DNA of 64,000 nucleotides from Mitsuaria sp. GD03876 (lineage in GTDB: Bacteria; Pseudomonadota; Gammaproteobacteria; Burkholderiales; Burkholderiaceae_C). A model generated the notes under the pieces. The model worked only from the letters and a program-made list of their open reading frames with translations, had not been told where the DNA came from and ran no database searches. The stretch spans positions 1 through 64,000 of the forward strand of contig NZ_JAOCCU010000010.1 of the NCBI RefSeq assembly GCF_029840635.1, given 5' to 3'. A program made the translations under genes and the position numbers. Positions 244-64,000 of this stretch are shown here, piece by piece; position 1 is the first letter of the stretch; each line of letters opens with the position of its first letter.

Positions 244-397
244 CCCTGCCGGCCATCGCCGGACAATCCGCGCCCCGTACGGGGAAGCTCCGGGCTTGAT
301 AGCCCGGGGCGCATCCCCACGATAGAGATCTCCCGCGCATCCGCGCGCGAAAGGCTGAGACACTGTCCCGGCATTTCGTCAGACTCACGAGGCCTGC

Positions 398-2458
398 ATG
401 ACCGATTCCACCGCCGCCGCGCCCGCCGCGAACCCGCTGCTGTCGACCGCGCCGCTGCCCGACTTCGCCGCGATCGATCCCTCCCACATCCAGCCCGCCA
501 TCGCCGAGCTGCTGGCCCAGGCCCAGCAGGCGCTGGACCGGGTCACCGCGCCGGATTCGCCGGTCGACTACGACGCGCTGTCGCGCACCGCCAACGTCCC
601 CATCGAACGCCTGAGCACCGCGTGGGGCGCCGTCGGCCACCTGAACGCGGTGGCCAACACGCCGGCGCTGCGCGAGGCCTACAACGCGATGCTGCCGGCG
701 GTGACCGAGTTCTACACGGCGCTGGGCGCCAACGAGGCGCTCTACGCCAAGTACAAGGCGATCGCCGCCCAGCCCGGCCTGACGCCGGAGCGCGCCCAGC
801 TGCTCAAGCACGCGATCCGCGATTTCGTGCTGTCGGGCGCCGAACTCGAGGGCGAGGCCAAGGCGCGCTTCGCCAAGATCCAGGAGCGCGGCGCCGAGCT
901 CGGCCAGGCCTTCTCCGAACACGTGATGGACGCGACCGACGGCTGGTCCTGCATCGCCACGGCGGCGGAGCTCAAGGGCGTGCCGGCCGACGTCGTCGCC
1001 AACGCGCGCGCCGCGGCCGAGAAGGACGGCAACACCGATCCCGACGCGCACAAGCTGACGCTGCACTTCCCGGTCTACATGCCGGTCATGCAGTACGCCG
1101 AGGACCGCGCGCTGCGCGAGCGGCTGTACCGCGCCTACGTGACGCGGGCCAGCGAGCTCGGCGACAAGCCGGACTGGGACAACGGGCCGCTGATGCAGGA
1201 ACTGCTGATGCTGCGCCAGGAGGAGGCGAAGCTGCTGGGCTTCGCGAACTTCGCCGAGGCCTCGCTGGTGCCGAAGATGGCGACGTCGCCGGCGCAGGTG
1301 CTGGAGTTCCTGCGCGACCTGTCCGCCCGCGCCCGTCCGTACGCGCAACGCGACCTCGACGAGCTGCGCGACTTCGCCAAGGCCGCGCTGCGGCTGGACG
1401 ACCTGCAGGCCTGGGACACGGCCTTCGTCTCGGAGAAGCTCAAGGAGGCGCGCTACGCGTTCTCCGACCAGGAAGTGCGGCAGTACCTGACGCTGCCGCG
1501 GGTGCTGGATGGGCTGTTCCGCATCGTCGACCGGCTGTTCGGCGTCCAGCTGGTGCCGGCGAAGGCGTCGGTGTGGCACGAGTCGGTGCAGTTCTGCGAG
1601 CTGCGCCGCGACGGCCAGCTGATCGGACAGGTCTACCTGGACCTGTACGCGCGCAACGGCAAGCGGCCCGGCGCGTGGATGGACGAGGTGCGCAGCCGCT
1701 GGGCGCGGCCGGACCTGGCCGGCAGCGGCACCGAGCAGATCCCGGTGGCGCACCTGGTGTGCAACTTCCCGCAAGGCGCCGATGGCAAGCCGGCGCTGCT
1801 GACGCATGACGACGTCACCACGCTGTTCCATGAATGCGGCCACGGCCTGCACCACCTGCTGACGCGGGTGGCGGAGCTGGGCGTGTCGGGCATCTCCGGC
1901 GTTGAGTGGGACGCGGTCGAGCTGCCGAGCCAGTTCATGGAGAACTTCTGCTGGGAGTGGGAGGTGATCCAGCAGTTGTCGGCGCACGTGGACACCGGCG
2001 CGCCGCTGCCGCGCGCGCTGTTCGACAAGATGCTGGCGGCGAAGAACTTCCAGGCCGGGCTGCAGACGCTGCGCCAGATCGAGTTCGCGCTCTTCGACAT
2101 GCGGCTGCATGCGGAGCCGGGCGCGGAGGCGCGGGTGCAGGACGTGCTGGACGAGGTGCGGGACGAGGTCTCGGTGCTGAAGCCGCCGGCGTTCAACCGC
2201 TTCCAGCACAGCTTCTCGCACATCTTCGCGGGCGGCTACGCGGCGGGGTACTACAGCTACAAGTGGGCGGAGGTGCTGTCGGCCGATTGCTGGAGCGCCT
2301 TCGAGGAGGAAGGCGTGTTCAATCCCGCCACCGGCCGCCGCTACCTGGACGAGATCCTGTCGATGGGCAGCGTCCGCGACGCGATGGACAACTTCAAGGC
2401 CTTCCGCGGCCGCGAGCCGACGATCGACGCGTTGTTGCGGCACCAGGGCATGGCTTGA
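398..2458 (+). CDS. prlC: Oligopeptidase A, M3 family zinc metallopeptidase
   Basis: Cytosolic zinc endopeptidase that degrades short peptides, including cleaved signal peptides. The product is 686 residues, close to the roughly 680 of the E. coli enzyme. The HEXXH zinc motif is present as HECGH at residues 478-482, and the third ligand is probably Glu508 in the VELPSQ segment that follows, as in thimet-type M3 peptidases. The C-terminal region carries the usual FSHIFAGGYAAGYYSY substrate-binding stretch. It stands alone, 155 bases after the chemoreceptor end, with no obvious operon partner. The family call is secure; the exact substrate range is not visible. Confidence 0.95.
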   Translation: MTDSTAAAPAANPLLSTAPLPDFAAIDPSHIQPAIAELLAQAQQALDRVTAPDSPVDYDALSRTANVPIERLSTAWGAVGHLNAVANTPALREAYNAMLPAVTEFYTALGANEALYAKYKAIAAQPGLTPERAQLLKHAIRDFVLSGAELEGEAKARFAKIQERGAELGQAFSEHVMDATDGWSCIATAAELKGVPADVVANARAAAEKDGNTDPDAHKLTLHFPVYMPVMQYAEDRALRERLYRAYVTRASELGDKPDWDNGPLMQELLMLRQEEAKLLGFANFAEASLVPKMATSPAQVLEFLRDLSARARPYAQRDLDELRDFAKAALRLDDLQAWDTAFVSEKLKEARYAFSDQEVRQYLTLPRVLDGLFRIVDRLFGVQLVPAKASVWHESVQFCELRRDGQLIGQVYLDLYARNGKRPGAWMDEVRSRWARPDLAGSGTEQIPVAHLVCNFPQGADGKPALLTHDDVTTLFHECGHGLHHLLTRVAELGVSGISGVEWDAVELPSQFMENFCWEWEVIQQLSAHVDTGAPLPRALFDKMLAAKNFQAGLQTLRQIEFALFDMRLHAEPGAEARVQDVLDEVRDEVSVLKPPAFNRFQHSFSHIFAGGYAAGYYSYKWAEVLSADCWSAFEEEGVFNPATGRRYLDEILSMGSVRDAMDNFKAFRGREPTIDALLRHQGMA

Positions 2459-2525
2459 GTCAGCAAGACCTCGAAATCCACTGATCCGGGCCAGTACCAA
2501 ATCGGCTGCACTTGAATCGTCCTGA

Positions 2526-2557
2526 CCATCCGGTGGCTAGCATCGACCGCTGGATGG
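2526..2557 (+). other. Hairpin upstream of the EEP gene
   Basis: Two 11-base arms (2526-2536 and 2547-2557) can pair with two or three wobbles around a 10-base loop. The hairpin ends 18 bases before the ATG at 2576, just upstream of an AAGGA ribosome-binding site. There is no T run, so it is not an obvious terminator of prlC. It could be a protein-binding site or an RNA element controlling the two genes downstream. No function is established. Confidence 0.35.
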
Positions 2558-2575
2558 TGAAGGACGAGACAGTCG

Positions 2576-3478
2576 ATGCAACTGACCCTGGCCTGGTGGA
2601 ACGCCGCGTTGTCGCCGACGCGCAAGGGGGACCGCGCGACGACGCCTGAACTCTCGACGGCCGCGAACGTGATTCGCCGCCTGATCGAGGCCCAGGCCGA
2701 TGTCATCGTCCTGTGCGAGGTCTCCGAGCGGGACATCGCCGCGATCGAGCAGCAATTGCTCGATCGGCTCGATGCCTTCTCGGTCCTGCCGGCACAACGT
2801 CCCGCCGGAGCCAGCCGCTTCGACACCGCCGTTCTTCATCGCCGTGCCCTACCCCTGGCCGAGTCGTCGCCGGTACTGCTTCATCACGGGTCAAGGACCT
2901 TCCGGGCCGCTCAGCGTTTCTCGCTGCGCCTGCCCGATGCCACCGCGCTCAGTCTCTACGCGTCGCATTGGCCCAGCAGGATCCATGTCGCCGCACAGTC
3001 GCCATTGCGATCCATGCTGGGGCAGACCTTGCGGGCGGCGGTGGCCGACGAGCTCCATGAGTCGCCCGGCGCGCCGTTGATCCTCATGGGGGACTTCAAC
3101 GACGAGCCCTTCGATCCCGCGCTGAGCGACTGCCTGCTGTCCTCGCGAGATCGCGAGTTCGTCGAGCAGCATGTCCATCTGCTCTACAACCCCTTCTGGC
3201 GTCACATGACGTCCTTCGAGCCGCTCGATCCTGGCCAGCGCGTCAGCGACAAGGGCAGCTACTTCCACGGCCAGGGCGATGTCACGCGCTGGCGCACCTT
3301 CGACCAGATGATGGTCAGCGCCTCCCTGCTGACCGGCCGATGCGGGTGGCGCCTCTCCGAAGCAGAGACCCGCGTCGTGGCGGACGTCGAACTCATGCCC
3401 ATGCTGCGCGGGCGGAACTGCCCCTTCGACCATCTGCCCATCTTGGGACGAATCTTCAGGAGTACCGGGAATGAATGA
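2576..3478 (+). CDS. Endonuclease/exonuclease/phosphatase (EEP) family protein
   Basis: A 300-residue protein with the four hallmark motifs of the EEP fold (DNase I, exonuclease III, inositol-phosphatase relatives). These are WN (Asn9), the metal-binding Glu48 in VLCEVSE, GDFND at about 172-176 (Asp173, Asn175) and the final catalytic FDHLP (Asp285-His286). No signal peptide is seen, so it should act in the cytoplasm. The family cleaves phosphodiester or phosphomonoester bonds; the substrate cannot be read from sequence. The stop codon lies inside the start of the next gene (8-base overlap), so the two are probably translationally coupled. By eye its GC content is lower than that of prlC, consistent with an accessory pair. 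Confidence 0.8.
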   Translation: MQLTLAWWNAALSPTRKGDRATTPELSTAANVIRRLIEAQADVIVLCEVSERDIAAIEQQLLDRLDAFSVLPAQRPAGASRFDTAVLHRRALPLAESSPVLLHHGSRTFRAAQRFSLRLPDATALSLYASHWPSRIHVAAQSPLRSMLGQTLRAAVADELHESPGAPLILMGDFNDEPFDPALSDCLLSSRDREFVEQHVHLLYNPFWRHMTSFEPLDPGQRVSDKGSYFHGQGDVTRWRTFDQMMVSASLLTGRCGWRLSEAETRVVADVELMPMLRGRNCPFDHLPILGRIFRSTGNE

Positions 3479-3896
3479 CTTTCAAGAGGCGCTCGAGATC
3501 GGGCTCCAGGCCGCCGACATGGCCGCGCGGGCGCGTACCGAGATCGACGCGGTCTTTGTCGAGCTCAATGCGGCGGTCGACGCGTCGACCCGGGGCCGGG
3601 CGCGAATCGCGCTCACGAGCATGCCCTTCCATGACGACAAGGTCTCGCGATCGATCGCCTTGTCCGGCGACGACATGCCGACCGCGCTGGCCGTCTTCAA
3701 GACAAGCGGCGATCCGCCGGCCCGTCGCCAGATCGCCAGGTGGCGCGCCTCTCCGCACGGCTTTCCCTGCACCTTGATCTGGGACGATCGCCACGTCATG
3801 TGCGGCGACGCCGAAGCGCTGCGCGACGAACTCGTCGACCTGATGAGGACGCCCGCGGTCGGCTTCGCGATCAAGGCCATCGTCGGGACGGAGTGA
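3471..3896 (+). CDS. Unknown 141-residue protein coupled to the EEP gene
   Basis: Not recognised. It starts at an ATG eight bases before the end of the EEP reading frame, an arrangement typical of partner proteins made in fixed ratio. The product is soluble, without signal peptide or membrane segment. An N-terminal helical, Ala-rich region (residues 1-35) is followed by a mixed region with a short WDDRHVMCGD segment near residue 105. The C-terminal segment RDELVDLMRTPAVGF looks helical. It could be a regulator, inhibitor or substrate-recognition partner of the nuclease-like protein; that is inference from gene order only. Confidence 0.75.
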   Translation: MNDFQEALEIGLQAADMAARARTEIDAVFVELNAAVDASTRGRARIALTSMPFHDDKVSRSIALSGDDMPTALAVFKTSGDPPARRQIARWRASPHGFPCTLIWDDRHVMCGDAEALRDELVDLMRTPAVGFAIKAIVGTE

Positions 3897-3915
3897 ATGG
3901 CGACGGTCCGGATCC

Positions 3916-6900
3916 TCACGGGCTCATGGAGGCCGGCGGCTTCTTCCACGGCACCGTCTGGATGAGGCGTTTCGCCTCGTCCGCCGGCAGGGCCTTGGCG
4001 AACAGCCAGCCTTGCGCCACCTGCACGCCCAGTTCCTCCAGCAGCACGGCCTGGGCCTCGTCCTCGACGCCCTCGGCCAGCGTCTGCTTGCCCAGCGCGT
4101 CGGCCAGGCCGACGATCGTGCGCACGATCTCCCGCGCCTCGCGGCCCGCCCCCAGCCGCATCACGAAGCTGCGGTCGATCTTCAGCGTGTCGAACGGGAA
4201 CCGGTGCAGGTAGGCCAGCGATGAGTACCCCGTCCCGAAATCGTCGATCGACAGCTTGAAACCCAGCCGCGCCAGCTCCTGCAGCACCTCGGCGCTGCGC
4301 TGCGGATTGGCCATCGCCATGCTCTCGGTGACCTCCAGCTTCAACTGCGCCGCCGGCACGTCGCCCAGCGCCTTGAGCGTCTCGCGCGCGTCGTTCAGCA
4401 GCTCGACGTCGCGTTCGAGCTGCACGCCCGAGACGTTGACCGCGATCTCGCCCTTGAAGCCGATGTCGCGCCAGCGGCGCAGCTGCAGCGCCGCCTCGAT
4501 CAGCGTCCACCGGCCGATCTCGACGATCTGGCCGCTCTCCTCCGCCACCGGGATGAAGTCGCCCGGCATCACCATGCCGCGCGTCGGATGCTTCCAGCGG
4601 ATCAGCGCCTCGAAACCGAGCAGCGCGCGGTCCGACAACCTCACGAAGGGCTGGTAGTGGAGCTGGAACTCGCCGGCCTCCAGGCCGCGCGCGATGTTCT
4701 CCTTCACCCAGCGCCGCGATTGCTCGACCAGTTGCCGCGCCGGATCGAACAGGGCGACCTGGCCGGTGCCCGCCGCCTTCGCCCGGGCCAGCGCGCTCTC
4801 GGCGGCGGCCAGCAGGTCGTCCGGACTGAAGTTGCCCTGCCCCGTGTAGGCCCAGCCCGCGCTGGCCGTGAGGCGGTGCGCGCCGGTGCGGGAGGGCCGG
4901 GAAGGTCCGCCTGAGGCCGCGTCCGCGGTTGTTCCATCGGCCGGAGCAGCCGCGGCCGTTCCGGGCCCAACGGGACCAACGCCGGGCGACGACGCCGCCG
5001 TCGAAGTCGAAGTCGAAGTCGAGGCCGAGGTCGCGCGGCCCGCGTCGACGGTCTCGAACAGGAAAGGATCCTCGACCCGCGCCAGCGCCCATTCGGGCAC
5101 GCGGTCGACCAGGGCGCCGGCCTCGATGCGGGCGTCGAAGAGGATCGCGAACTGGTCCGCGCCCAGCCGCGCGACGACGCGGCCCGAGCGCGCCGCGCGG
5201 CCGGTGCCGCCGGCCAGCCGCGTGGCGCATTCGACCAGCACGGCATCGCCGGCCGGCAGGCCGTGGCTCTCGTTGAAGGCGCGGAAGTCGTCCAGGCCCA
5301 CCAGCACCAGGCCGACCGGCACGCCGGGCACCGGCGTGGCCAGCCGCTGCGCGACCAGCGCCATGAACAGCGAGCGATTGGGCAACCCGGTCAGCCGGTC
5401 ATGCAGCGCGTCGTGCGCGACCTGCGCCTGCAGCCGTTCGTTCTCGCTGATGTCGGTGAGCGAGCCCGCCATCCGGACCGGCTTGCCCTCGCGGCGCACC
5501 GCGACGCCCCGGGCCAGCAGCGCGCGCGCCTGGCCGCCCTGCCCGAAATGCAGCACGTGGTGGAACTGGTGGCTCCGGCCTTGCAGATGCGCGTCGAGCT
5601 CGGCCCGGAACAGGCCGGCCGCCGCTTCGTCCAGCGGGCGCGTGAAACGGCCGATGCCTGCGTCGCCCTCGGCGCGCGTGCCGTCGGCGTCGCCCATCAG
5701 CGCGCGCCAGCGCGAGGAGACGTCCAGCCGGTCGGCGACGACATCCCAGTCCCAGAGCCCGTCGTTGGCGCCCTGCGCGGCGAGCGCGTAACGCTCCTCG
5801 CTGATCGTCAGCCGGCGCAGCGCGTCGCGGCGGCGGGACTGGTCCGCCAGCGCGCGCAGGGTCAACGCGCCCAGGCTGGCGGCGGCGACCGCCAGCAGCG
5901 GATAGGCCAGCGAGAGCACCAGGTATTGCGTTTCGAAGGCCCATTGCGCGGCGTACAGGCCGCCGCCCACCAGCAGCGCGACGACCAGCAGCCCGCGCCA
6001 CAGCGCGCCGCGCGCCAGCAGCAGCGCGCACAGCAGCGGCAGCAGGAGCAGCGCCGACAGCTCGGCCAGCGAGGCCCAGGACGGGCGCGTCAGCGTGCGC
6101 GCGGTCAGCACGTTGTCGACGACCGTGGCCAGCCGTTCCATGCCGGGCAGGCCGGCGTCGAAGGGACTCGGGAAATGGTCGCCGGCGCCGAGCGCCGACA
6201 CGCCCAGCAGCACGATGCGGTTATGGAGCGCGTCCTCGGGCACCTTGCCGTCGACGAGGTCGGCCAGCGACACCGAGGCGAAGGTGCCGGCCGGGCCGTA
6301 GTAGTTGACGCCCTGGCGCGACAGCAGGTCCAGCGGCACGCGCAGCGAGCCCCAGCGGACGTCGCGGCTCCAGCGCACGCTGGCCTCGGACCAGGGCTGG
6401 CGCATCGCGTCGCCGGCGATGCGCAGCGCCAGCGAGGGATAGACCTCGCCGTCCAGCGGCAGCGCGGGCAGGTCGTGGCGCAGCGCGCCGTCGACCTCGC
6501 GATCCGCCTGCACATGGCCGAGCGACCGGGCGGCGGACAGCAGCGGCTCGGGCGGCGCGTCGGCGCGTTCGGGCACCAGCGCGCTGCGTGGCGTGCCTTC
6601 CGACCGCATGAAGGCCTGCGCGAGCAAGGCGGCCGGCGCGCTGGCCGCGAGCGGCGGCGCACCAGCACCAGCACCAGCACCAGCACCAGCACCCGCGCCA
6701 GCGCCAGCGCCAGCGAGAGTGCCGGCACTCGCGCCCCCGGTGGGCGGCGGCAAGACGCCGGTCGCCGGCGGCAGCGCGAACGGCAGCAGCACCGGCGCGC
6801 CGCCGCGCATCGCGGCGGCGAGCGCGGGATCGCTGTCCGGTTTCGCATCCAGCAGCAGCATGTCGACGGCGATCAGCCGCGGCTTCGCGGCCTGCGCGCG

Positions 6901-7296: not shown

Positions 7297-7961
7297 CAGA
7301 CCCCCGCCAGCCGGTCCATCGCCGAGCGCACGCGCTCGGCCGGCCAGGGCGTCGAGGCGGTGCAGCCTTGCGAGACGTCGCAGTCGGTGCCGCCGGCCCG
7401 CTCCACGACGACCGGCAGTTGCGCGCCCAGGCCGCGCGTGCGTCCCGCGGCGCGCGGTCCCGGCAGCACCGCCACCTGGCCCGACTGCACGTGGACCGAG
7501 GTCTGCTCGTTGTCGCCGACCTCGACCAGGAACTCGGTGCCGCGCACCGCCGTCACCGCCGACGGCGTGCGCACCTCCCACTTGCCCGCGGCCGAGGGCG
7601 CGACCTTCTGTCCGAGCAGCCCGCGTTCGAGCAGCAGCGACACGTCGCGCGCGCCGTAGCCGGCGCCGCCGGCGCCGAGGTTCAGCTTCGTCAGCGTCAG
7701 CTGGCTGCGATCGCCGACGACCAGGCTGGAGCCATCCGGACAACGCAGCCGGACGCGGCCGTTGGCGCCGGTGCGCAGCTGGACGCCCTCGCCCACCGCC
7801 TCGCCGACCTTCAGCGGCTGAGCCTGGCCCGCGACCACGCGCGCGGCCTCGCCGGCCAGCGCGGCCACCTCGCAAGCCTGCGCCCGCGCGGCCAGCGGCA
7901 CGGCCGCCAGCAGGGCCGCCAACGCGGTCGTCGTCATCGTCATGTGCATCCCTCGCTTCAT
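7296..7961 (-). CDS. FecR-domain exported protein
   Basis: A protein of about 221 residues with a signal peptide (Lys-Arg, then a hydrophobic ALAALLAAVPL stretch ending in ARAQA) and a FecR domain. The domain has the typical order GEAVGEGVQLRTGANGRVRL, a SSLVVGDRSQL turn, and RTPSAVTAVRGTEF. Such domains sit in the periplasm; in these contexts they appear as stand-alone sensory or binding modules rather than iron regulators. The start is uncertain: the 5' end is crowded with in-frame ATG codons back to 8039, two bases after the CHAT stop. I chose 7961 because it gives a normal basic n-region. It lies between the CHAT gene and the CHASE2 gene, overlapping the latter by one base. Confidence 0.8.
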   Translation of the reverse strand: MKRGMHMTMTTTALAALLAAVPLAARAQACEVAALAGEAARVVAGQAQPLKVGEAVGEGVQLRTGANGRVRLRCPDGSSLVVGDRSQLTLTKLNLGAGGAGYGARDVSLLLERGLLGQKVAPSAAGKWEVRTPSAVTAVRGTEFLVEVGDNEQTSVHVQSGQVAVLPGPRAAGRTRGLGAQLPVVVERAGGTDCDVSQGCTASTPWPAERVRSAMDRLAGV

Positions 7962-8041
7962 CGTCATGCGCTCGTTCATTGCTTGGTTCATCCGCGTCAT
8001 CCGCATCATCGGCATCGGCATCTGTGTCGTCGTGGGCATCT

Positions 8042-11000
8042 TCACTGCGCCGGGTCGCCGAACAGCGCGTAGGCCGCCCAGTAGTACGGGTGCGTCCAGC
8101 GGCCCTGCCCGTCCTGGCCGTCGGCCATCGCGAGCTGGGCCCGGCGCAGGCCGGCGGCGCGTGTGTCGGCGGGCGCCAGTGTCGCTCCGGTCAGCGCGGC
8201 CGCGGACGCCGATTCCACCGCCCAGTGCGTGGCCAGCACCGACCGCGCGCCGGCGAAGAAGAAGCCGCGCACCAGCCCGGACATCGCCGCCCCGCCCTGC
8301 TCGCCGGCGGCCGTGTTGCAGGCCGACAGCAGCACCCATTGCGCGTTCATCCGCAGCGTCAGCACGTCGTCGAGTTCCAGCAGCGGCGAGGCGCCCTCGT
8401 CGGCCTCGGCCGCCATGGCCAGCGCCGGCTTGGAGATCCCGGGCAACTCGCCCGGCATCAGCCCGTGGGTCGCGAAGGCAAGCACGCGGCGGTCCGCCAG
8501 CGGCGTCGCCAGCACCGCGCTGCGCGTCGCCGCGGCGCCGAGCCGCAGGTCGACCGCCGGGTCCGCGCCGAGCGCGCGCGCGATCGTCAGCAGCTCCGCG
8601 CGGGTCTCGGGCAGCGGCGGGATGTCGGCATAGCGGAAACCGAGTTGCGCGTCGTAGCGCCCCGAACCGCGCGTCGGCGTCGGCGCGAGCAGATGCCTCG
8701 CAGTCTTCGCCGACGTCGACGCCGCCGTCGCCGTCGCCGTGCCTCCGGCGCGGTCGAACGCCGGATCGCCGAAGCCCAGCAGCGCCTTGGGCGCTTGCGC
8801 GGGCGCGGCCGCGCGGCGCAGCGCCTGCAGCGACGCGCCGGACGGCAGCTGCACCACCGCCTGCTGCCGCAGCAGCCAGGCGACCGGCCGGCCAGCCACC
8901 GGCGGCTCGGTGACCAACGCCGCCAGCGGCAGCCCGGCCAACGGCCCGTCCCCGGCGACGATCAGCGTGTTCAGCCCCTGCCGGTTCAACGGCGCCAGCA
9001 ACTCGCGGTACAGCGCATGCAGCTCGGGCAGTGCCTGCGCCAGCGGCGTCTCGCGGCCCGCCGGCATCGTGCTGAGGTCCACCCGTTGCCGCAACGCCGT
9101 CACGCGCGCCGCCAGCGCCGCCGCGCCCGCCGGCATCGCGCGGAACTGCGCCGGCGCATCGGCGCGCAGCAGCCAGACCAGCGTCTGGTCCTCCAGCGCC
9201 TGCACGACCAGCAGCCCCTCGCCGGGCCGCAGCCGGCCGCTGAGCGCCACCGCCCCCGGCGTCGCCGGCGTGATCAGGTCGGCATAGGCCGGATAGGCCG
9301 ACGCCAGCCGTTGCCGCTGCGCCGCGAGCGCCTCGCGCGCGGTCGCCGCCTCGCCCTGGCGCGCCTGCAGTTGCTGCCGCAGCGCCTTCAACGCGTCCTC
9401 GCGCGGCTTGCGCTGCTCCTTGGGCAGCGCCTTGAAGGCCTCGGTCGACAGCTCCTTGCGCAGCTTGTCCTCGTCCGCGATCAGCGCGGCCACCTGCCCG
9501 TACTGGCCCGAGGCCGCCTTGCGCAGCGTCTGTTCCTCGTCGAGCAGCGCACGCAGCGCCGGCGTCGCCGCCAGCAACCGCGCGGTGCTGTCGGCCAGCG
9601 CCCGCTGCGTGCTGCCGAGCTTGCGCCGGTCGGCGATCTGCAGCGCCCGGTCGACGACCGCCGGCGGCAGCGCCTCGCCCGCCAGCGCGCGCCGCGCCGC
9701 GTGCGCCAGGAATTCGTCGAACGCCAACCCCAGCACGAAGCCGCGGAAACCCCGCGCGTCCAGGTCCACCCAGCCGTCGCTGCGATCCAGCGTGGCGGCG
9801 AACAGCTGCTCGTAGTCGCTCATCGCGCCGCCGGCGTCGCCGCGCAGCAGCCGCACGACCGCACGCACGCCGGCGCTCTCGCGGGTCTGCGGATGGTCCT
9901 GGCCGTAGATCCGGGTGCGGTAGCGCAGCGTGCGCTCGGCCGTCTCCAGCGCCTCGTCCAGCCGGCCGCTCTTGGCCGCGAGCAGCGCGGCGAGCCGGTT
10001 GTCCTGCGCCCGCGTGCGCGCGACGCCGTCACCGCCCAGTTCCTCCAGGAACTGGCGGTAGGCCTGGTCGGCCTCGGTCCAGCGCTTCAGGCCGAGCAGC
10101 GCGCGCAGGATCTCCTGGCGCGCCAGCCAGCGCGTCTGGCTCGCCGCCGACGCGTTGGCCCGGGCCAGCATCGCCTCCGACTGCCGCGCCGCGGCCAGCG
10201 CCTCCTCGTACTGCTGCGACGCGTTGAGCGCCGTCGCCGCGCGGTAGTTCCAGCGCGCGCCCTGGCCGTCGTCGAGCTGCCCGGCGCGCCACAGCGCGAG
10301 GTTGTCCTGCGCGATGTCGGCCGCCTCGCGGGTGCGGCCCTGGCCGACCAGCGCGTAGATCAGCATGCCCTGAGAGCCGTCGAGCCAGCCCTGCCATTGC
10401 CTCAACTGCTCCTCGCCGACGCGCTGCGCGAGGCCGCCGGCCACCAGCTCGCGCGACCGCGCCACCGCCTGGCGCAGCGTGGCGATGGCCGCCGGGCCGT
10501 CGCCGGTGAGCCGTTCGGTCTCGGCCCGCACCTGCAGCCGGTCGATCGTCAGCGGCAGCGAGGGCTGCTGCTTGAGCGCCTCGGCGGCGAGCGCGTCGGC
10601 GCGGCTCCAGGCGCGCAACATCACCTGGCGGTCCTGCCCGGCATTGGCCAGGAAGTAGGTCTGGCGCAGCGCGACGCCGGCGCGCGCCGCCGGGCTCAGC
10701 TGCTTGTCGGCCAGCAGCGGCTCGCAGGCGGCGAGCGCGGCGCCGGAGCTGCCCCAGGTGAATTCGGTGGTCAGGTAGAGCCGGATCCAGCCCTCGCCGT
10801 CCGGACGGCCGCGGCCGAGCGGCACCAGCGCCTTGGCGACCTCGATCTGGCGGCCGCGGTCCTCGAGCCGGCGCGCCGCCAGCCATTGGCGCTTGAGCAG
10901 CGCGTAGCGCGCGTCGGGGGAATCGGGCAGCGGCTCGGCGAGCAGGCGTCGGGCGTCGTCGGCGGACAGGCCGTAGGCCTCGCCGATGTCGCCATCCTCG

Positions 11001-59878: not shown

Positions 59879-59906
59879 AAGAAGCCACCCCGACGGGTGG
59901 CTTCTT
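59879..59906. terminator. Bidirectional terminator between the 329-residue gene and the microcin-like operon
   Basis: A 12-base-pair stem (59879-59890 with 59895-59906) with a CGAC loop and a TTTCATTT tail on the plus side; the minus side has an AAGAGGG-type tail. It begins six bases beyond the last gene of the minus-strand operon. Confidence 0.88.
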
Positions 59907-59911
59907 TCATT

Positions 59912-60133
59912 TCAGGGTCGGCGGCAGGAACGTGGTATCGATCGGCCACCACAGAGCATCGCCATGACAAGGCCATAGGCAACGCTGACGCCAAGTAGCT
60001 TCTCGTTTGCTTGGACTTGTCCATCCACAAGAATGCCAAGCGCGACGTAGCCGCCTAGAAACAGCGTCGACAGTTCGACGAAGCACAAGCAAAGAGCGAG
60101 CCCCCAAGCGGCTTTGGCGCTATTCATCGCCAT
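59912..60133 (-). CDS. Small two-helix membrane protein, possible immunity protein
   Basis: A 73-residue membrane protein with two hydrophobic segments (about 9-37 and 48-60), last gene of the island operon. Its start overlaps the end of the peptide gene: ATG at 60133 or, more plausibly for coupling, at 60127, inside the last codons of that gene. Size and topology are like those of microcin V immunity protein Cvi (78 residues, two helices), but sequence similarity cannot be judged. Immunity is inference from position and topology. Confidence 0.7.
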   Translation of the reverse strand: MAMNSAKAAWGLALCLCFVELSTLFLGGYVALGILVDGQVQANEKLLGVSVAYGLVMAMLCGGRSIPRSCRRP

Positions 60134-60428
60134 CGACGGTCTTATCGAGCCACTCGAGACCCTGGGCGATCCACCGTTGAACGGGGGTGTGGTCGTTCAG
60201 TGCTTGCCCCAACTTCCAGCCCCCGATTCCCGCCGCCATCAGACCTCCGGCGGTGGCGGCGCCTACCCCGGCCAGTCCGACAGCCTCTAGCGCGCCGAGG
60301 CCAAGAGTCGCGCCTCGACTCAGGCCAATCCCACCCCCTATTCCCGATGCCCAACCCATCAGGTCACCCGGCGACATATCGGCGCCGCCAAACACAAATT
60401 CGTATTCACTGACTTGCAGTTCTCGCAT
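60120..60428 (-). CDS. Microcin/class II bacteriocin-like precursor with double-glycine leader
   Basis: A 102-residue peptide. Residues 1-15, MRELQVSEYEFVFGG, match the double-glycine leader of class II microcins (microcin V: MRTLTLNELDSVSGG), with Leu, Glu and Val at the expected places before Gly-Gly. The predicted 87-residue core is rich in Gly and Ala (GIGGGIGLSRGATLGLG, AGVGAATAGGLMAAGIGG), without cysteine, and ends in an amphipathic, acidic tail. That is close in size and style to mature microcin V. AAGGAG lies six bases before the ATG, which overlaps the previous stop (TAATG). Export would need a PCAT-type peptidase-transporter, which is not in the window. Antibacterial activity is inferred. 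Confidence 0.75.
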   Translation of the reverse strand: MRELQVSEYEFVFGGADMSPGDLMGWASGIGGGIGLSRGATLGLGALEAVGLAGVGAATAGGLMAAGIGGWKLGQALNDHTPVQRWIAQGLEWLDKTVDGDE

Positions 60429-60697
60429 TACTTGCTCCTTGGAAACTTGAACACGCGACCGAATACCAGCCGCATTAAGGCATCGAATGGCCGCCGACCG
60501 CTTGCGATCTCGTCGATATTTCTTGCATTTACCCTAAGAAACCTCCAGAAGAAATAAACACCAGCAAGACCAAGAATCCCAAGAACGGGAATATTCTGAA
60601 GAATCCCCGCTTGAGACAAATCATCTCGAAAACAATAAACGACGAAGCCAAAACAGGCACCGCCACCCAACAAAAAACAGGCCATCGAACTTTTCAT
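60428..60697 (-). CDS. Small membrane protein of the microcin-like operon
   Basis: An 89-residue protein with two hydrophobic helices (about 5-22 and 34-54) and a basic C-terminal third (RVNARNIDEIASGRR, FGRVFKFPRSK) likely in the cytoplasm. The ATG overlaps the oxygenase stop by four bases (ATGA), with AAGGA seven bases upstream. Its stop overlaps the peptide start. It could be an immunity or export accessory protein. No family was recognised. Confidence 0.72.
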   Translation of the reverse strand: MKSSMACFLLGGGACFGFVVYCFRDDLSQAGILQNIPVLGILGLAGVYFFWRFLRVNARNIDEIASGRRPFDALMRLVFGRVFKFPRSK

Positions 60698-61830
60698 GAA
60701 CCCATCCTTTTTGGCCGCAAGATATCTCTTAGCGATAGCTCATTGATAAATCGCCGCCCTTCCGAATCAAGGACAGATTGCCTGCCCTTCAACGTTGCAG
60801 ACAGGGAGTGACGAGCCCGCTCATCCATTGCCAGCTTGACTCCATTGGCGATCACAGGAGACGACGTCGGATCCTGACGAAATGGTGAGTTGATTTCGAG
60901 CACCTCTTGCAGCGGCGCACCCAAGTCACTATTCCATTTCTCAATAAGAAATGCGGTCTCTTGCCTGACGCTATCGGCACGAAACTCCTGAAAGCGCCTT
61001 AGATTGGCAGGTTGAGAAACTTCCTCGCTGAAAGCAGCCAAGAACTCATTAGCTTTGCAATCCGCCTCGCGGTCTTGCCATTGCAACGAACGTCGGCTCG
61101 CCAAGTGATCTCCCATCACGTGCTCGCATAGCCAGCTCGCATAGTCCTTCACCCGAGGGGGATGAACACCCACAGCGATATGGAAGGACTCCTCACCAGG
61201 CGGTGTTTCAGTTGCGTGCCACCAGCCTCTTGGGACGTACAGAACGTCCCCCGGCTTCAGTAGTACCTCAAGTGCGTGCTGCGTCGGACATTCATCCTTC
61301 CTCTCCTTGCTGCGCTGCTCCGGCAAAGGGAGCTCTAGCGTCGGCTCAAATACCCGCCAGAGTTTCTGCCCAATCAACTGCACAGCGAATACATCATGCG
61401 TGTCCCAATGACGACCGAACGCCCCTGTCCCGCCGAAGCAGGCGTAGCCGTTCGACACCGTCTGTTCGCTCAAGAATGAGGCAACCCGGAAGTTGATCTC
61501 CGCAATATCGGGACATTTCAGCTCGAGCCTATTCATCACGAGGGTTGCGCCGTTGGCCATGTGCTCGCGAAGCCTATCCTTCATGATTCGAAATCTTCGG
61601 GATCCCAACTCTTCGACCAATTCAACGAATACGTCGACGGGCAAGAACTCTCCGTTGAATAGACGAAGCCTGCCGTCCGATGGGTCCCAGCCGAAAAGCC
61701 CACGATTGACTTGCTCCCAGCCATATCGAACGGCGCAGGCCCCTCGCGCCAGCCATGGCCTGCGCTCGTAATAGCCTTCCAGGAACTCGGTTGAATTCCA
61801 GTCATCACCTAGGGTCACACACCCCTCCAC
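60694..61830 (-). CDS. Cupin_4/JmjC-type iron oxygenase (RoxA-like)
   Basis: A 378-residue protein of the cupin_4 group, relatives of the ribosomal oxygenase RoxA/YcfD. The Fe(II) ligands are visible as H141-x-D143 in GRHWDTHDVF and His205 in YVPRGWWHATE. The flanking signature DVFAVQLIGQKLWRVFEP is typical. These enzymes hydroxylate a protein side chain using 2-oxoglutarate and oxygen; RoxA acts on a ribosomal protein. Position at the head of the microcin-like operon suggests the peptide or its receptor as substrate, which is inference. The start is a GTG (61830). The gene is far lower in GC than the surrounding genome. Confidence 0.85.
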   Translation of the reverse strand: MEGCVTLGDDWNSTEFLEGYYERRPWLARGACAVRYGWEQVNRGLFGWDPSDGRLRLFNGEFLPVDVFVELVEELGSRRFRIMKDRLREHMANGATLVMNRLELKCPDIAEINFRVASFLSEQTVSNGYACFGGTGAFGRHWDTHDVFAVQLIGQKLWRVFEPTLELPLPEQRSKERKDECPTQHALEVLLKPGDVLYVPRGWWHATETPPGEESFHIAVGVHPPRVKDYASWLCEHVMGDHLASRRSLQWQDREADCKANEFLAAFSEEVSQPANLRRFQEFRADSVRQETAFLIEKWNSDLGAPLQEVLEINSPFRQDPTSSPVIANGVKLAMDERARHSLSATLKGRQSVLDSEGRRFINELSLRDILRPKRMGS

Positions 61831-62236
61831 GAGTCTGCGTTTCTGGAAAATGAATAAGTCGGGGGAAAGCGACAGCAGCGCCCGACCTCGAAACTGTGCA
61901 GATCGTCAAGCGTTTGGCCAATCGCATGGGTCAGCACATGACTCATACGTCTTCCACCCATTCGAGGCAAATCTCACTTAAGGTGCTGGAAGACGTCGCG
62001 GGTGGTGGCCACGTTCATTCGGGTTTCCCCGAAGATTCGTCGCGCCCGCCCATCACCCCAGGTAAAGAAGCTTGAAAGTCCTTCCCGGGCTTAGAAACGA
62101 AACGTACAGCGTGCGATGCTTCCGCCCGTTTCGCCGCTGATCCCCGTCGATCGGCGCCGCTCCCGCTTCCAAGTTCTCCGCGCTTCCGTCCAGCCATCGC
62201 CAGATCGGCCGCGCTTGTCCCGCCATTGCTTCATCG
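61831..62236. other. Divergent intergenic region between oxygenase operon and TonB receptor
   Basis: No confident gene is seen in 406 bases. Composition changes from AT-richer near the oxygenase to genome-like near 62100. A 43-codon minus-strand frame (61815-61946) starts at an ATG with GGAAG just upstream and overlaps the oxygenase start by 16 bases, so it might be a leader peptide. A 14-codon frame precedes it. I see no recognisable -10/-35 pair or terminator. Confidence 0.5.
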
Positions 62237-64000
62237 ATGACAAGCCTCCGCCGCCCCGCCCTGACACCGCTCTCGGTCGCCCTGTTGCTCGGCCTGAGCA
62301 CACCCGCCTGGTCGCAGACCGCGCCGCCGTCCCCGCCCGCCGCGCCGCCGGCCAAGGCGCCTGCCCCCGCACCGGCCCCCCAGCGCGCGCGTCCCGCGCC
62401 GCCACCGGCCAGCAAGGACAACGCCGACGCCCCCACGCAGCTCGACCGCGTCGAGGTCCAGGGCACCTCGCGCGACGACGACCAGCGCCGGGCCTCCACC
62501 GCCTCCAAGATCATCATCGGCCGCGATGAGATCGAGCGTTACGGCGACTCCACCATCGGCGAGGTCCTCAAGCGCCTGCCCGGCGTCACCACCGGCGGCC
62601 GCCCGGGCCGCGGCGGCGAGGTCCGCATGCGCGGCATGGGCGGCGGCTACACCCAGATCCTGGTCAACGGCGAGCGCATGCCGCCGGGCTTCTCGCTCGA
62701 CGAGCTCCCGCCCGAGCAGATCGAACGCATCGAGGTCATGCGCGCCCCCACCGCCGAATACGGCGCCCGCGCCATCGCCGGCACCATCAACGTCGTCCTG
62801 CGCGAGGCGCTGCAGCGCCGCCTCAACGAGGTGCGCCTGGCCACCGCCTTCGAGCGCGACCACGTCACCCCGCACCTGAGCTGGACCCGCAACGACAAGC
62901 TCGACGACAACGGCGGCGCCTACAACCTCACCGTCAATGCGATGCAGCACAAGCGCGTCGACGACGTGGACTCGCACTCGCTCACGCAGACCTTCGATGG
63001 CGCCGGCGCGCTGCAGCGCCAGACGCTGCTGACCAACCTCGGCCAGTCGCGCGACGAGCGCAAGTCGCTGAACCTCACCGGCCGGCTGCAGCTGCGCCTG
63101 GACGGCGGCGACACCATCGCGATCCAGCCCTTCCTGATGGCCAATCGCGGCAAGAGCAGCAGCGTCTTCGCGCAGTCGCAGACGCCCGACCTGCCGCCCA
63201 CCGACATCGACCGCCTCGACTACGACGGCGTCCAGACCGACGGCACCAGCCGCGCCACCATGGCGCGGCTCAACGTCCAGTGGAACAAGCGCCTCGGCGA
63301 GCAGACCCGCATGGAGACGCGGCTCGGCGCGGGCCGCATGACGATGACCAGCGTCGCGCACCGCGAGGAGGACGACTCCCGCCGCACCGACGAGACCTTC
63401 TTCCGCCGCCAGGACGACACGACCAAGAGCCGCGACACGCAGTGGAGCTTCAACACCAAGCTCACGCACCAGATGGACAACGAGCACAGCCTCGTCGCCG
63501 GCGTCGAGGGGGAAGGCACCGAACGCAAGCAGACGCGCAGTTGCCAGCAGCTCTACGGCACCGATGCCGCCTGGTCCAACTGCGCCTTCCTGGCGGACTT
63601 CGGCGACAACGTCACCGCCTCCACGCGCCGCTTCGCCGCCTACGCGCAGGACGAGTGGAGCGTCGGCAAGCAATGGGGCTTCTACGCCGGGCTGCGCTGG
63701 GAGGGCATCCAGACCAAGAGCACCAACAACCAGGGGCCGGTCGACAACAGTTCCAGCGTCGTCACGCCGCTGCTGCACGCGGTCTACAAGCTCGACGAGA
63801 AGAGCCGCGAGCAGATCCGGGCCAGCCTCACCCGCAGCTACAAGTCGCCCAACCTGAACGACGTCGTCGGCCGGCTGAGCATCAGCAGCCGCTACAACTG
63901 CAAGCCGCCGGACATCCCTTGCGGCGAGAACCGCCTCGAGTCGCCCGACCGTCTCGGCAACCCCGACCTCAAGCCGGAGATGGCGACGGGTGTCGAGATC
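62237..64000 (+). CDS. TonB-dependent outer-membrane receptor (partial, runs off the window)
   Basis: The frame is open from an ATG at 62237 to the window edge, giving the first 588 residues. Signal peptide (LSVALLLGLSTPAWSQ), a Pro/Ala linker of about 40 residues, then a TonB-box-like QLDRVEVQG. The plug domain follows with KIIIGRDEIERYGDSTIGEVLKRLPGV, GGEVRMRGMGGGYTQILVNGERMPPGF and ERIEVMRAPTAEYGARAIAGTINVVLRE. The barrel has many Arg/Asp-rich strands. The ligand is unknown; no riboswitch or iron box was noticed upstream. It is divergent from the microcin-like operon. Confidence 0.92.
   Translation, partial: MTSLRRPALTPLSVALLLGLSTPAWSQTAPPSPPAAPPAKAPAPAPAPQRARPAPPPASKDNADAPTQLDRVEVQGTSRDDDQRRASTASKIIIGRDEIERYGDSTIGEVLKRLPGVTTGGRPGRGGEVRMRGMGGGYTQILVNGERMPPGFSLDELPPEQIERIEVMRAPTAEYGARAIAGTINVVLREALQRRLNEVRLATAFERDHVTPHLSWTRNDKLDDNGGAYNLTVNAMQHKRVDDVDSHSLTQTFDGAGALQRQTLLTNLGQSRDERKSLNLTGRLQLRLDGGDTIAIQPFLMANRGKSSSVFAQSQTPDLPPTDIDRLDYDGVQTDGTSRATMARLNVQWNKRLGEQTRMETRLGAGRMTMTSVAHREEDDSRRTDETFFRRQDDTTKSRDTQWSFNTKLTHQMDNEHSLVAGVEGEGTERKQTRSCQQLYGTDAAWSNCAFLADFGDNVTASTRRFAAYAQDEWSVGKQWGFYAGLRWEGIQTKSTNNQGPVDNSSSVVTPLLHAVYKLDEKSREQIRASLTRSYKSPNLNDVVGRLSISSRYNCKPPDIPCGENRLESPDRLGNPDLKPEMATGVEI

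Follow-up and report, generated by a model that had tools for sequence, protein, structure and literature searches.

The DNA analysed here is a 64,000-nucleotide window from Mitsuaria sp. GD03876 (Burkholderiales; contig NZ_JAOCCU010000010.1, positions 1 to 64,000). It contains four minus-strand frames within positions 61830–59912 that overlap successively by 4, 1 and 14 bases, as an earlier reading of the sequence alone (the first-pass annotation) had placed them (Table 1). They encode an oxygenase of the JmjC_2 family, a membrane protein of 89 residues, a precursor peptide of 102 residues and a hydrophobic protein of 73 residues. We propose, with moderate confidence, that this is a class II microcin-like operon whose oxygenase hydroxylates the tail of the peptide before export. 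The proposal is built on a coupling observed across related loci, which appears to be new: the C-terminal tail of the peptide follows the type of the neighbouring oxygenase rather than the core of the peptide.

Table 1. Position and strand of the features of the operon and of its divergent neighbour, in window coordinates.
Feature	Position	Strand	Basis or remark
JmjC_2 (cupin_4-like) oxygenase gene	60694–61830	minus	PF08007; 378 residues from GTG 61830
89-residue protein, two hydrophobic helices, candidate immunity protein	60428–60697	minus	hydropathy
102-residue precursor peptide	60120–60428	minus	15-residue leader (1–15) and 87-residue Gly/Ala-rich mature part
Leader MRELQVSEYEFVFGG	60384–60428	minus	aligned with other leaders
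C-terminal DGD, residues 99–101	60126–60134	minus	proposed oxygenase site or recognition element
73-residue hydrophobic protein, second candidate immunity protein	59912–60133	minus	hydropathy; 14-base overlap with peptide gene
12-bp hairpin, probable operon terminator	59879–59906	minus	−23 kcal/mol, z −5.15
TonB-dependent receptor, divergent neighbour	62237–64000, continues beyond the window	plus	several TonB receptor models, all under curated cut-offs

The peptide, the oxygenase and their co-occurrence

The peptide is a short precursor with a double-glycine (GG) leader (15 + 87 residues), as is characteristic of class II microcins. The first-pass annotation had compared this leader with that of microcin V; it does align with the leaders of related peptides, and the peptide has no match to Pfam's MccV model. 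Within a small set of sequences, the mature part matches an Acinetobacter peptide (locus L151; 38% over 86 residues, E = 7e-19) and peptides of Methylomonas (33–34% over 67 residues, E = 1e-15 to 5e-15), the stretch common to all lying around GWxxGxxLNxxTPxQ. Related peptide frames are under purifying selection, with ratios of nonsynonymous to synonymous substitution rates of 0.06–0.25 in six close pairs. These homologues and ratios bear out the expectation of the first-pass annotation that the peptide is conserved at the protein level. Chance frames of a GC-rich genome are ruled out by the homology, by the substitution ratios of the relatives and by the low GC content of the patch.

The oxygenase matches PF08007 (JmjC_2) with E = 1.6e-27. 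The ligands H141-x-D143 and H205, correctly named in the first-pass annotation, do not vary in an alignment of 19 relatives. K156 is equally invariant; in the match to solved MINA it is paired with the lysine that serves there as 2-oxoglutarate ligand. By its ligands the enzyme is predicted to be Fe(II)/2-oxoglutarate dependent. An AlphaFold2 model from a 22-row alignment has a mean pLDDT (predicted local distance difference test) of 87.6. The family and the ligand set are common to the ribosomal oxygenases RoxA/YcfD, MINA53 and NO66, from which the window enzyme differs in that its similarity to solved chains is partial: matches to MINA, NO66 and L16-hydroxylase chains cover only about 100–125 residues, and the match to L16 arginine hydroxylase chains is limited to residues 136–244. 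The genome holds three further JmjC_2 genes, one of which, on contig C15, is likely to be its RoxA. The identification of the window enzyme as a RoxA orthologue was rejected, as the similarity is local only and the genome has these other JmjC_2 genes.

A tree was built from 48 of the 94 candidate oxygenases (IQ-TREE). We distinguish three groups: S1, the window-type oxygenases; S2, a clade that we call McaB-like; and N, which comprises further members of this oxygenase family. Support is 100/98 for S2 and 99/97 for N (12 rows). The window enzyme clusters with those of L039, L043, L045, L046 and L053 (93/91), outside S2. An unresolved fan holds the Methylomonas enzymes, the paralogue encoded on contig C57 of the window's own genome, and a pair from Sphingomonas and Niveispirillum. 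Because S1 combines the window group with Methylomonas enzymes from this fan, it is a grouping of convenience. One N-group member, L051, stands outside the tree and was assigned by neighbours and similarity, and loci found later were assigned to S1 or S2 by best BLAST hit. The oxygenase of the Escherichia coli plasmid discussed below sits on a long branch, its place unsure.

The oxygenase is rare. An alignment model at E ≤ 1e-40 finds it in 3 of 398 genomes when the phylum is searched and in 7 of 399 for the order. Within the genus, 1 of 16 has it, and the remaining 15 species searched lack such an enzyme at this threshold; the orders of Acinetobacter and Methylomonas yield 2 of 390 and 5 of 301 (the own or centre genome is part of every count). 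A single-protein query at E ≤ 1e-15 matches in 7 of 119 Acinetobacter genomes, distant members included. The window protein itself matches in 73 of 100 relatives at 1e-5, with a best, partial match outside its own genome of 3e-16; most of these partial matches are probably RoxA. A scan of named genomes returned 80 loci, 25 of them at E 4e-39 or better. Gene maps were made for these 25, for the own paralogue, for the Acinetobacter, Neisseria and Moraxella loci and for one genome of the window's family; four plasmid matches were examined.

Co-occurrence of oxygenase and GG-leader peptide in unrelated genomes, which the first-pass annotation had proposed to look for, is found in many genera. Homologues stand beside GG-leader peptides, mostly together with HlyD and a C39 exporter, in Acinetobacter, Methylomonas, Variovorax, Achromobacter, Pseudomonas, Neisseria and Moraxella. 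Under a fixed rule (set leader pattern, ATG start, same strand, 6.5 kb), a GG-leader peptide is present at 11 of 12 S1 loci, 10 of 11 S2 loci and none of 13 N loci; the corresponding counts are 9/12, 8/11 and 0/13 for C39 and 10/12, 10/11 and 0/13 for HlyD. In a locus from the window's family (L165), oxygenase, membrane protein and GG peptide follow one another in the window's order and are succeeded by HlyD, a C39 exporter and a TolC-like protein.

Peptide tails and oxygenase types

All 17 S1 peptides (six genera by reading, near copies included) carry DGD in their last ten residues, as against none of the 14 S2 peptides. A different tail, G-x-[ND]-Y (GxNY or GxDY), is present in 10 of the 14 S2 peptides, in some of them twice, and the other 4 have neither tail. 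An earlier comparison, made before fresh loci were added, had given DGD in 14/14 S1 and 0/8 S2 peptides (Fisher p 3e-6, uncorrected for relatedness). The tail prediction was then written down before three orders were searched for new loci. Seven places from this search were taken up. One of them proved to be the L046 record, already in the set, and another, in genome G1536, is a near copy of a known Methylomonas locus that agrees with the prediction. Predicted tails are present in peptides of G987, G1150 and G1234 (S2) and of G1152 (S1), and the remaining place, G1127 (S2), has no peptide. The prediction thus held in all five new loci with peptides, one of them the near copy. Left out of the counts were L214, which is the locus of L055, and L233, which is the same record as L046, as well as the tail of Paraburkholderia L053 (DDGDS), which has no leader and an in-frame stop, and the interrupted second peptide of Methylomonas fluvii (L042).

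The tail is also absent from the controls, 19 stretches with a C39 exporter and no oxygenase. GG peptides, 8 altogether, were present in 6 of the stretches: a DG[DGSN] tail occurs in 0 of these 8 and in 17 of 22 peptides of oxygenase loci. The controls derive from 16 of 26 exporter matches outside the own genome (15 stretches; the other 10, mostly short contigs, were left out) and from the second exporters of Methylomonas genomes (4 stretches). Before the comparison, 8 frames of the oxygenase set and 3 of the control set were dropped as lying inside or against other genes or not resembling leaders.

The cores do not follow the oxygenase. Stripped of its leader and last 14 residues, the window peptide matches cores of S2 loci (L229, 3.7e-11; L151, 1.5e-9; L150, 9e-7) and of S1 Methylomonas loci (2.7e-10 to 6e-10), and all these matches are far better than anything among the decoys, for which each of 18 cores was shuffled 100 times (best E 0.039). 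Core and tail are therefore decoupled: one core family is found with both oxygenase types, bearing DGD next to S1 enzymes and tails of the GxNY type next to S2 enzymes. The L040 and L041 loci each pair one oxygenase with two peptides that are alike in leader and tail and have cores that are not detectably alike (E 0.10 and 0.08); at three other Methylomonas loci a relation between the two cores is evident or possible (L044, 2e-6; L045, 0.001; L043, 0.11). An alignment of 18 peptides, inspected by eye, reveals no core residue that tracks the oxygenase.

Membrane proteins, export and the setting of the operon

Both small proteins had been described in the first-pass annotation as two-helix membrane proteins. 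By hydropathy the 89-residue protein does have two hydrophobic helices; the 73-residue protein is indeed hydrophobic and has one clear helix, not two, at the threshold used. Neither has a significant family match or homology to the small frames of 19 related loci. Small hydrophobic proteins adjoin the peptides in many related loci. Two pairs of HlyD and C39 exporter genes are present elsewhere in the genome, on contigs C1 and C23, and the window is the only S1 locus that has a peptide and neither HlyD nor C39. Siderophore glycosyltransferase or linker genes are absent from the four operon genes, the only ones covered.

The GC content of the operon patch is 56%, compared with 71% for the window, which suggests acquisition, and the operon was probably acquired by the genome. 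Translation of the oxygenase starts more likely at GTG 61818, downstream of a GGAGG, than at GTG 61830. The terminator of the first-pass annotation stands as a strong hairpin, more stable than its shuffles (0/200 as good); its T-run is weak and it is missing from the list of a consensus terminator scanner. A scan found no promoter-like sites at the operon, and no Fur box upstream of the oxygenase scores above shuffled sequence (best 10/19, against a mean maximum of 10.2 over 200 shuffles). A plus-strand open reading frame (ORF) at 61896–62075, with an 'AGGG' stretch, has no significant family match and was set aside. The divergent TonB-dependent receptor gene begins just upstream of the operon; at L042 and L151, too, TonB genes resembling siderophore receptors are found close to the operon.

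Three further loci have GG-leader proteins that fall outside the tally rule. The second oxygenase of the same genome (L002/L119, G000:C57:18006-19133) is 38% identical to that of the window and is preceded by a 131-residue ORF, which contains SEDGDT internally and whose GG leader is looser; the locus has a weak C39-like match at a distance of about 8 kb. Like this locus, those of Sphingomonas and Niveispirillum carry looser or larger GG-leader proteins. In the latter two (L048 6093-6884 and L049 12652-13266) these are at least 200 residues long, with oxygenase, HlyD and C39 in the locus, and their mature part begins EGEDTDD. The N-group loci L047, L050–L052, L054 and L056–L063 have JmjC_2 oxygenases with no microcin genes found nearby, and several of these enzymes lie near large frames resembling resistance-nodulation-division (RND) efflux proteins. 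The distant Acinetobacter members L152–L154 also lie outside GG-peptide loci. In L152 (G178:C12:34000-44500; 330-5969) the oxygenase ends a set comprising a 55-residue ORF, transglutaminase-like and Asn synthase-like genes and an ATP-binding cassette (ABC) transporter, which reads as lasso-peptide-like; the L153 oxygenase stands beside a TylF-type methyltransferase and that of L154 beside a radical S-adenosylmethionine gene. In L231 (G1234:C1:2254700-2268800), two ORFs of about 205 residues (7943-8560 and 9451-10074) repeat the C-terminal half of the oxygenase. They are interspersed with GG peptides and small membrane proteins, a layout that looks like the duplication of entire cassettes. The record of L159, NZ_CP119142.1, is labelled as a Neisseria gonorrhoeae plasmid, yet at 2.17 Mb it has the size of a chromosome.

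Known systems and competing explanations

The first-pass annotation held that known class II microcin loci carry no oxygenase of this kind. This proved wrong: at least two published loci, those of Mcc17978 and Mcc1229, have a 'cupin' gene. The mcaABCD system for Mcc17978 of Acinetobacter baumannii ATCC 17978 includes a 'cupin-like' gene (PMC10333792). It resembles the window in combining this gene with a small peptide bearing a Gly-Gly/Gly-Ala leader and also has HlyD and a SunT-type exporter. The Acinetobacter plasmid pMC23.1 carries the mca gene set in mca order, with a JmjC_2-type oxygenase whose ligands are kept. Because its leader ends at residues 14–15 and that of Mcc17978 is said to end at 15–16 (PMC10333792), it is a relative of that system and not the same peptide. 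McaB itself would presumably fall in this A. baumannii plasmid-type clade. The window has the mca-type association of a JmjC_2/cupin-like gene with a GG/GA-leader peptide, with one small gene between them, and its peptide is homologous to those of such loci through L151 and Methylomonas, Mcc17978 itself not being part of the comparison; its oxygenase lies outside the McaB-like clade. Oxygenases of the pMC23.1 type form that separate clade and mostly accompany GxNY-type tails, unlike the window, with its DGD tail and no local exporter.

In Mcc1229 (mctABCDE, E. coli p0.1229_3), a 'cupin' gene lies on the plasmid in an operon with the peptide and an ABC transporter (PMC8853679). We find that the cupin encoded by an E. 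coli plasmid whose annotation lists the mct genes is similar to the oxygenase of the window (31%, 7e-18). This system differs from the window in its distant oxygenase, Cys-rich peptide end and other immunity genes. The mcbABCI locus of Moraxella catarrhalis (PMC2761928) has a GG-leader peptide like that of the window, with HlyD and a C39 exporter. On Moraxella pLQ510 we find an oxygenase homologue directly upstream of mcbA (L157, 39-1120), which reads as two ORFs; the words 'cupin' and 'JmjC' never occur in the main text of that paper. McbC has neither a DGD nor a GxNY-type tail, unlike the window peptide.

Class IIb microcins (MccE492, MccH47 and MccM) have a GG leader, a small Gly-rich peptide, a modified Ser-rich C-terminal tail and siderophore-linking genes. 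The window shares the leader and the small Gly-rich mature peptide, and would share a modified tail only if the tailoring model is right. Its own tail, WLDKTVDGDE, is acidic with DGD and is not the Ser/Gly-rich siderophore acceptor of that class, and no siderophore-linking gene is present among the four operon genes. A parallel for the proposed chemistry comes from BpmG and PbsQ, JmjC/cupin-type enzymes that hydroxylate ornithine in a biphenomycin-type ribosomally synthesized and post-translationally modified peptide (RiPP; PMC12257519). By their description they resemble our model as JmjC/cupin enzymes acting on a ribosomal-peptide side chain, and they differ in peptide class and surrounding enzymes. 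Oxygenase-tailored microcins and the DGD tail are undescribed in the titles and abstract openings among the matches listed, mostly from non-subscription literature.

In the course of events that we infer, covering catalysis, substrate, site, export in trans, immunity and antibacterial action, the precursor would be made in the cytoplasm, where the JmjC oxygenase would hydroxylate its C-terminal acidic tail, most likely by β-hydroxylation of Asp in DGD, our best guess of the chemistry. Genes at another place in the genome would supply a C39 ABC exporter and HlyD, which would then cut the leader at Gly-Gly and export the peptide, and one or both small membrane proteins would confer self-protection. 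A number of observations weigh against this. Some of the data used to assess the tail pattern are those on which it was initially spotted, the counts contain near copies, related sequences are not independent, and S1 is not one supported clade, unlike S2. Neither tail is found in the Moraxella pLQ510 and gonococcal peptides or in one of the four peptides of G1234 (L231), a case that the prediction allowed; the C57 paralogue locus offers just an internal EDGD and a looser leader. Under the tally rule L053 and L234 (S1 and S2) have no GG peptide, the third matching genome of the phylum (G477, L166) has no peptide, HlyD or C39, and tblastn found no C39 or HlyD within 12 kb of the operon in the window.

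A published observation on the other side is that mcaB alone on a plasmid protected a sensitive strain lacking the locus (PMC10333792). The oxygenase might accordingly be an immunity enzyme that hydroxylates the producer's target or the incoming peptide, as claimed for McaB; a solved JmjC_2 relative, the arginine hydroxylase of 50S ribosomal protein L16, makes cellular targets possible. One paper calls a 'cupin-like' microcin gene immunity, and another allows modification. An immunity oxygenase should follow the core, the part expected to meet the target; the tail is followed instead, and tailoring is therefore likelier. A single oxygenase can, moreover, accompany peptides that differ in their cores, each of which has small membrane proteins close by. 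Mcc1229 activity was lost when mctC was deleted and returned when the gene was supplied in trans, and immunity came from mctDE (PMC8853679). The tree place of McaB, for its part, is only deduced. We consider an immunity enzyme unlikely. Between the two ideas of the first-pass annotation, hydroxylation before export is thus better supported, because the tail follows the oxygenase, one oxygenase serves several peptides and mctC is needed for activity; protection of the producer keeps the mcaB result in its favour.

There is also a small chance that the enzyme modifies the peptide outside the tail, in the leader or the Gly/Ala-rich core, the tail then serving for recognition, for receptor binding or for export. 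Where one oxygenase accompanies peptides with unlike cores, these do have both tail and leader in common, and the JmjC-type RiPP hydroxylases act on a core residue (PMC12257519). Leaders of the same kind, however, occur in C39 loci without an oxygenase, and the by-eye alignment that found no core residue tracking the enzyme argues against a core site. It seems very unlikely that the locus in the window arrived without an exporter and survives as a relic, its peptide unsecreted and its genes being lost. The lack of an exporter within the operon's reach in the window and the absence of the enzyme, at E ≤ 1e-40, from the other 15 species searched in the genus fit such a history; the four frames are nevertheless intact and overlapping, leader, ligands and hairpin are kept, and the genome has the exporter pairs on C1 and C23.

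Tail tailoring before export, the reading we prefer, invites a speculative extension to which we give only a slim chance: the oxygenases may be tail finishers that turn DGD and GxNY into β-hydroxy-Asp and β-hydroxy-Asn iron ligands, making a siderophore mimic on a plain microcin. The idea comes from both published 'cupin'-bearing microcins, which are induced by low iron and use catecholate-type receptors: Fiu/PiuA for Mcc17978 (PMC10333792) and CirA for Mcc1229 (PMC8853679). β-Hydroxyaspartate is present in the iron-binding cupriachelins (PMC10484230). If the idea is true, a single enzyme would be enough for a Trojan-horse entry by way of TonB receptors of the catecholate type, a role that in class IIb microcins falls to an attached siderophore. 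In the papers compared, the 'cupin-like' genes of published microcins lacked an assigned chemistry; the genes described here are JmjC oxygenases with their ligands kept, and an oxygenase type that predicts the tail offers a way to look for microcins tailored by oxygenases throughout Proteobacteria.

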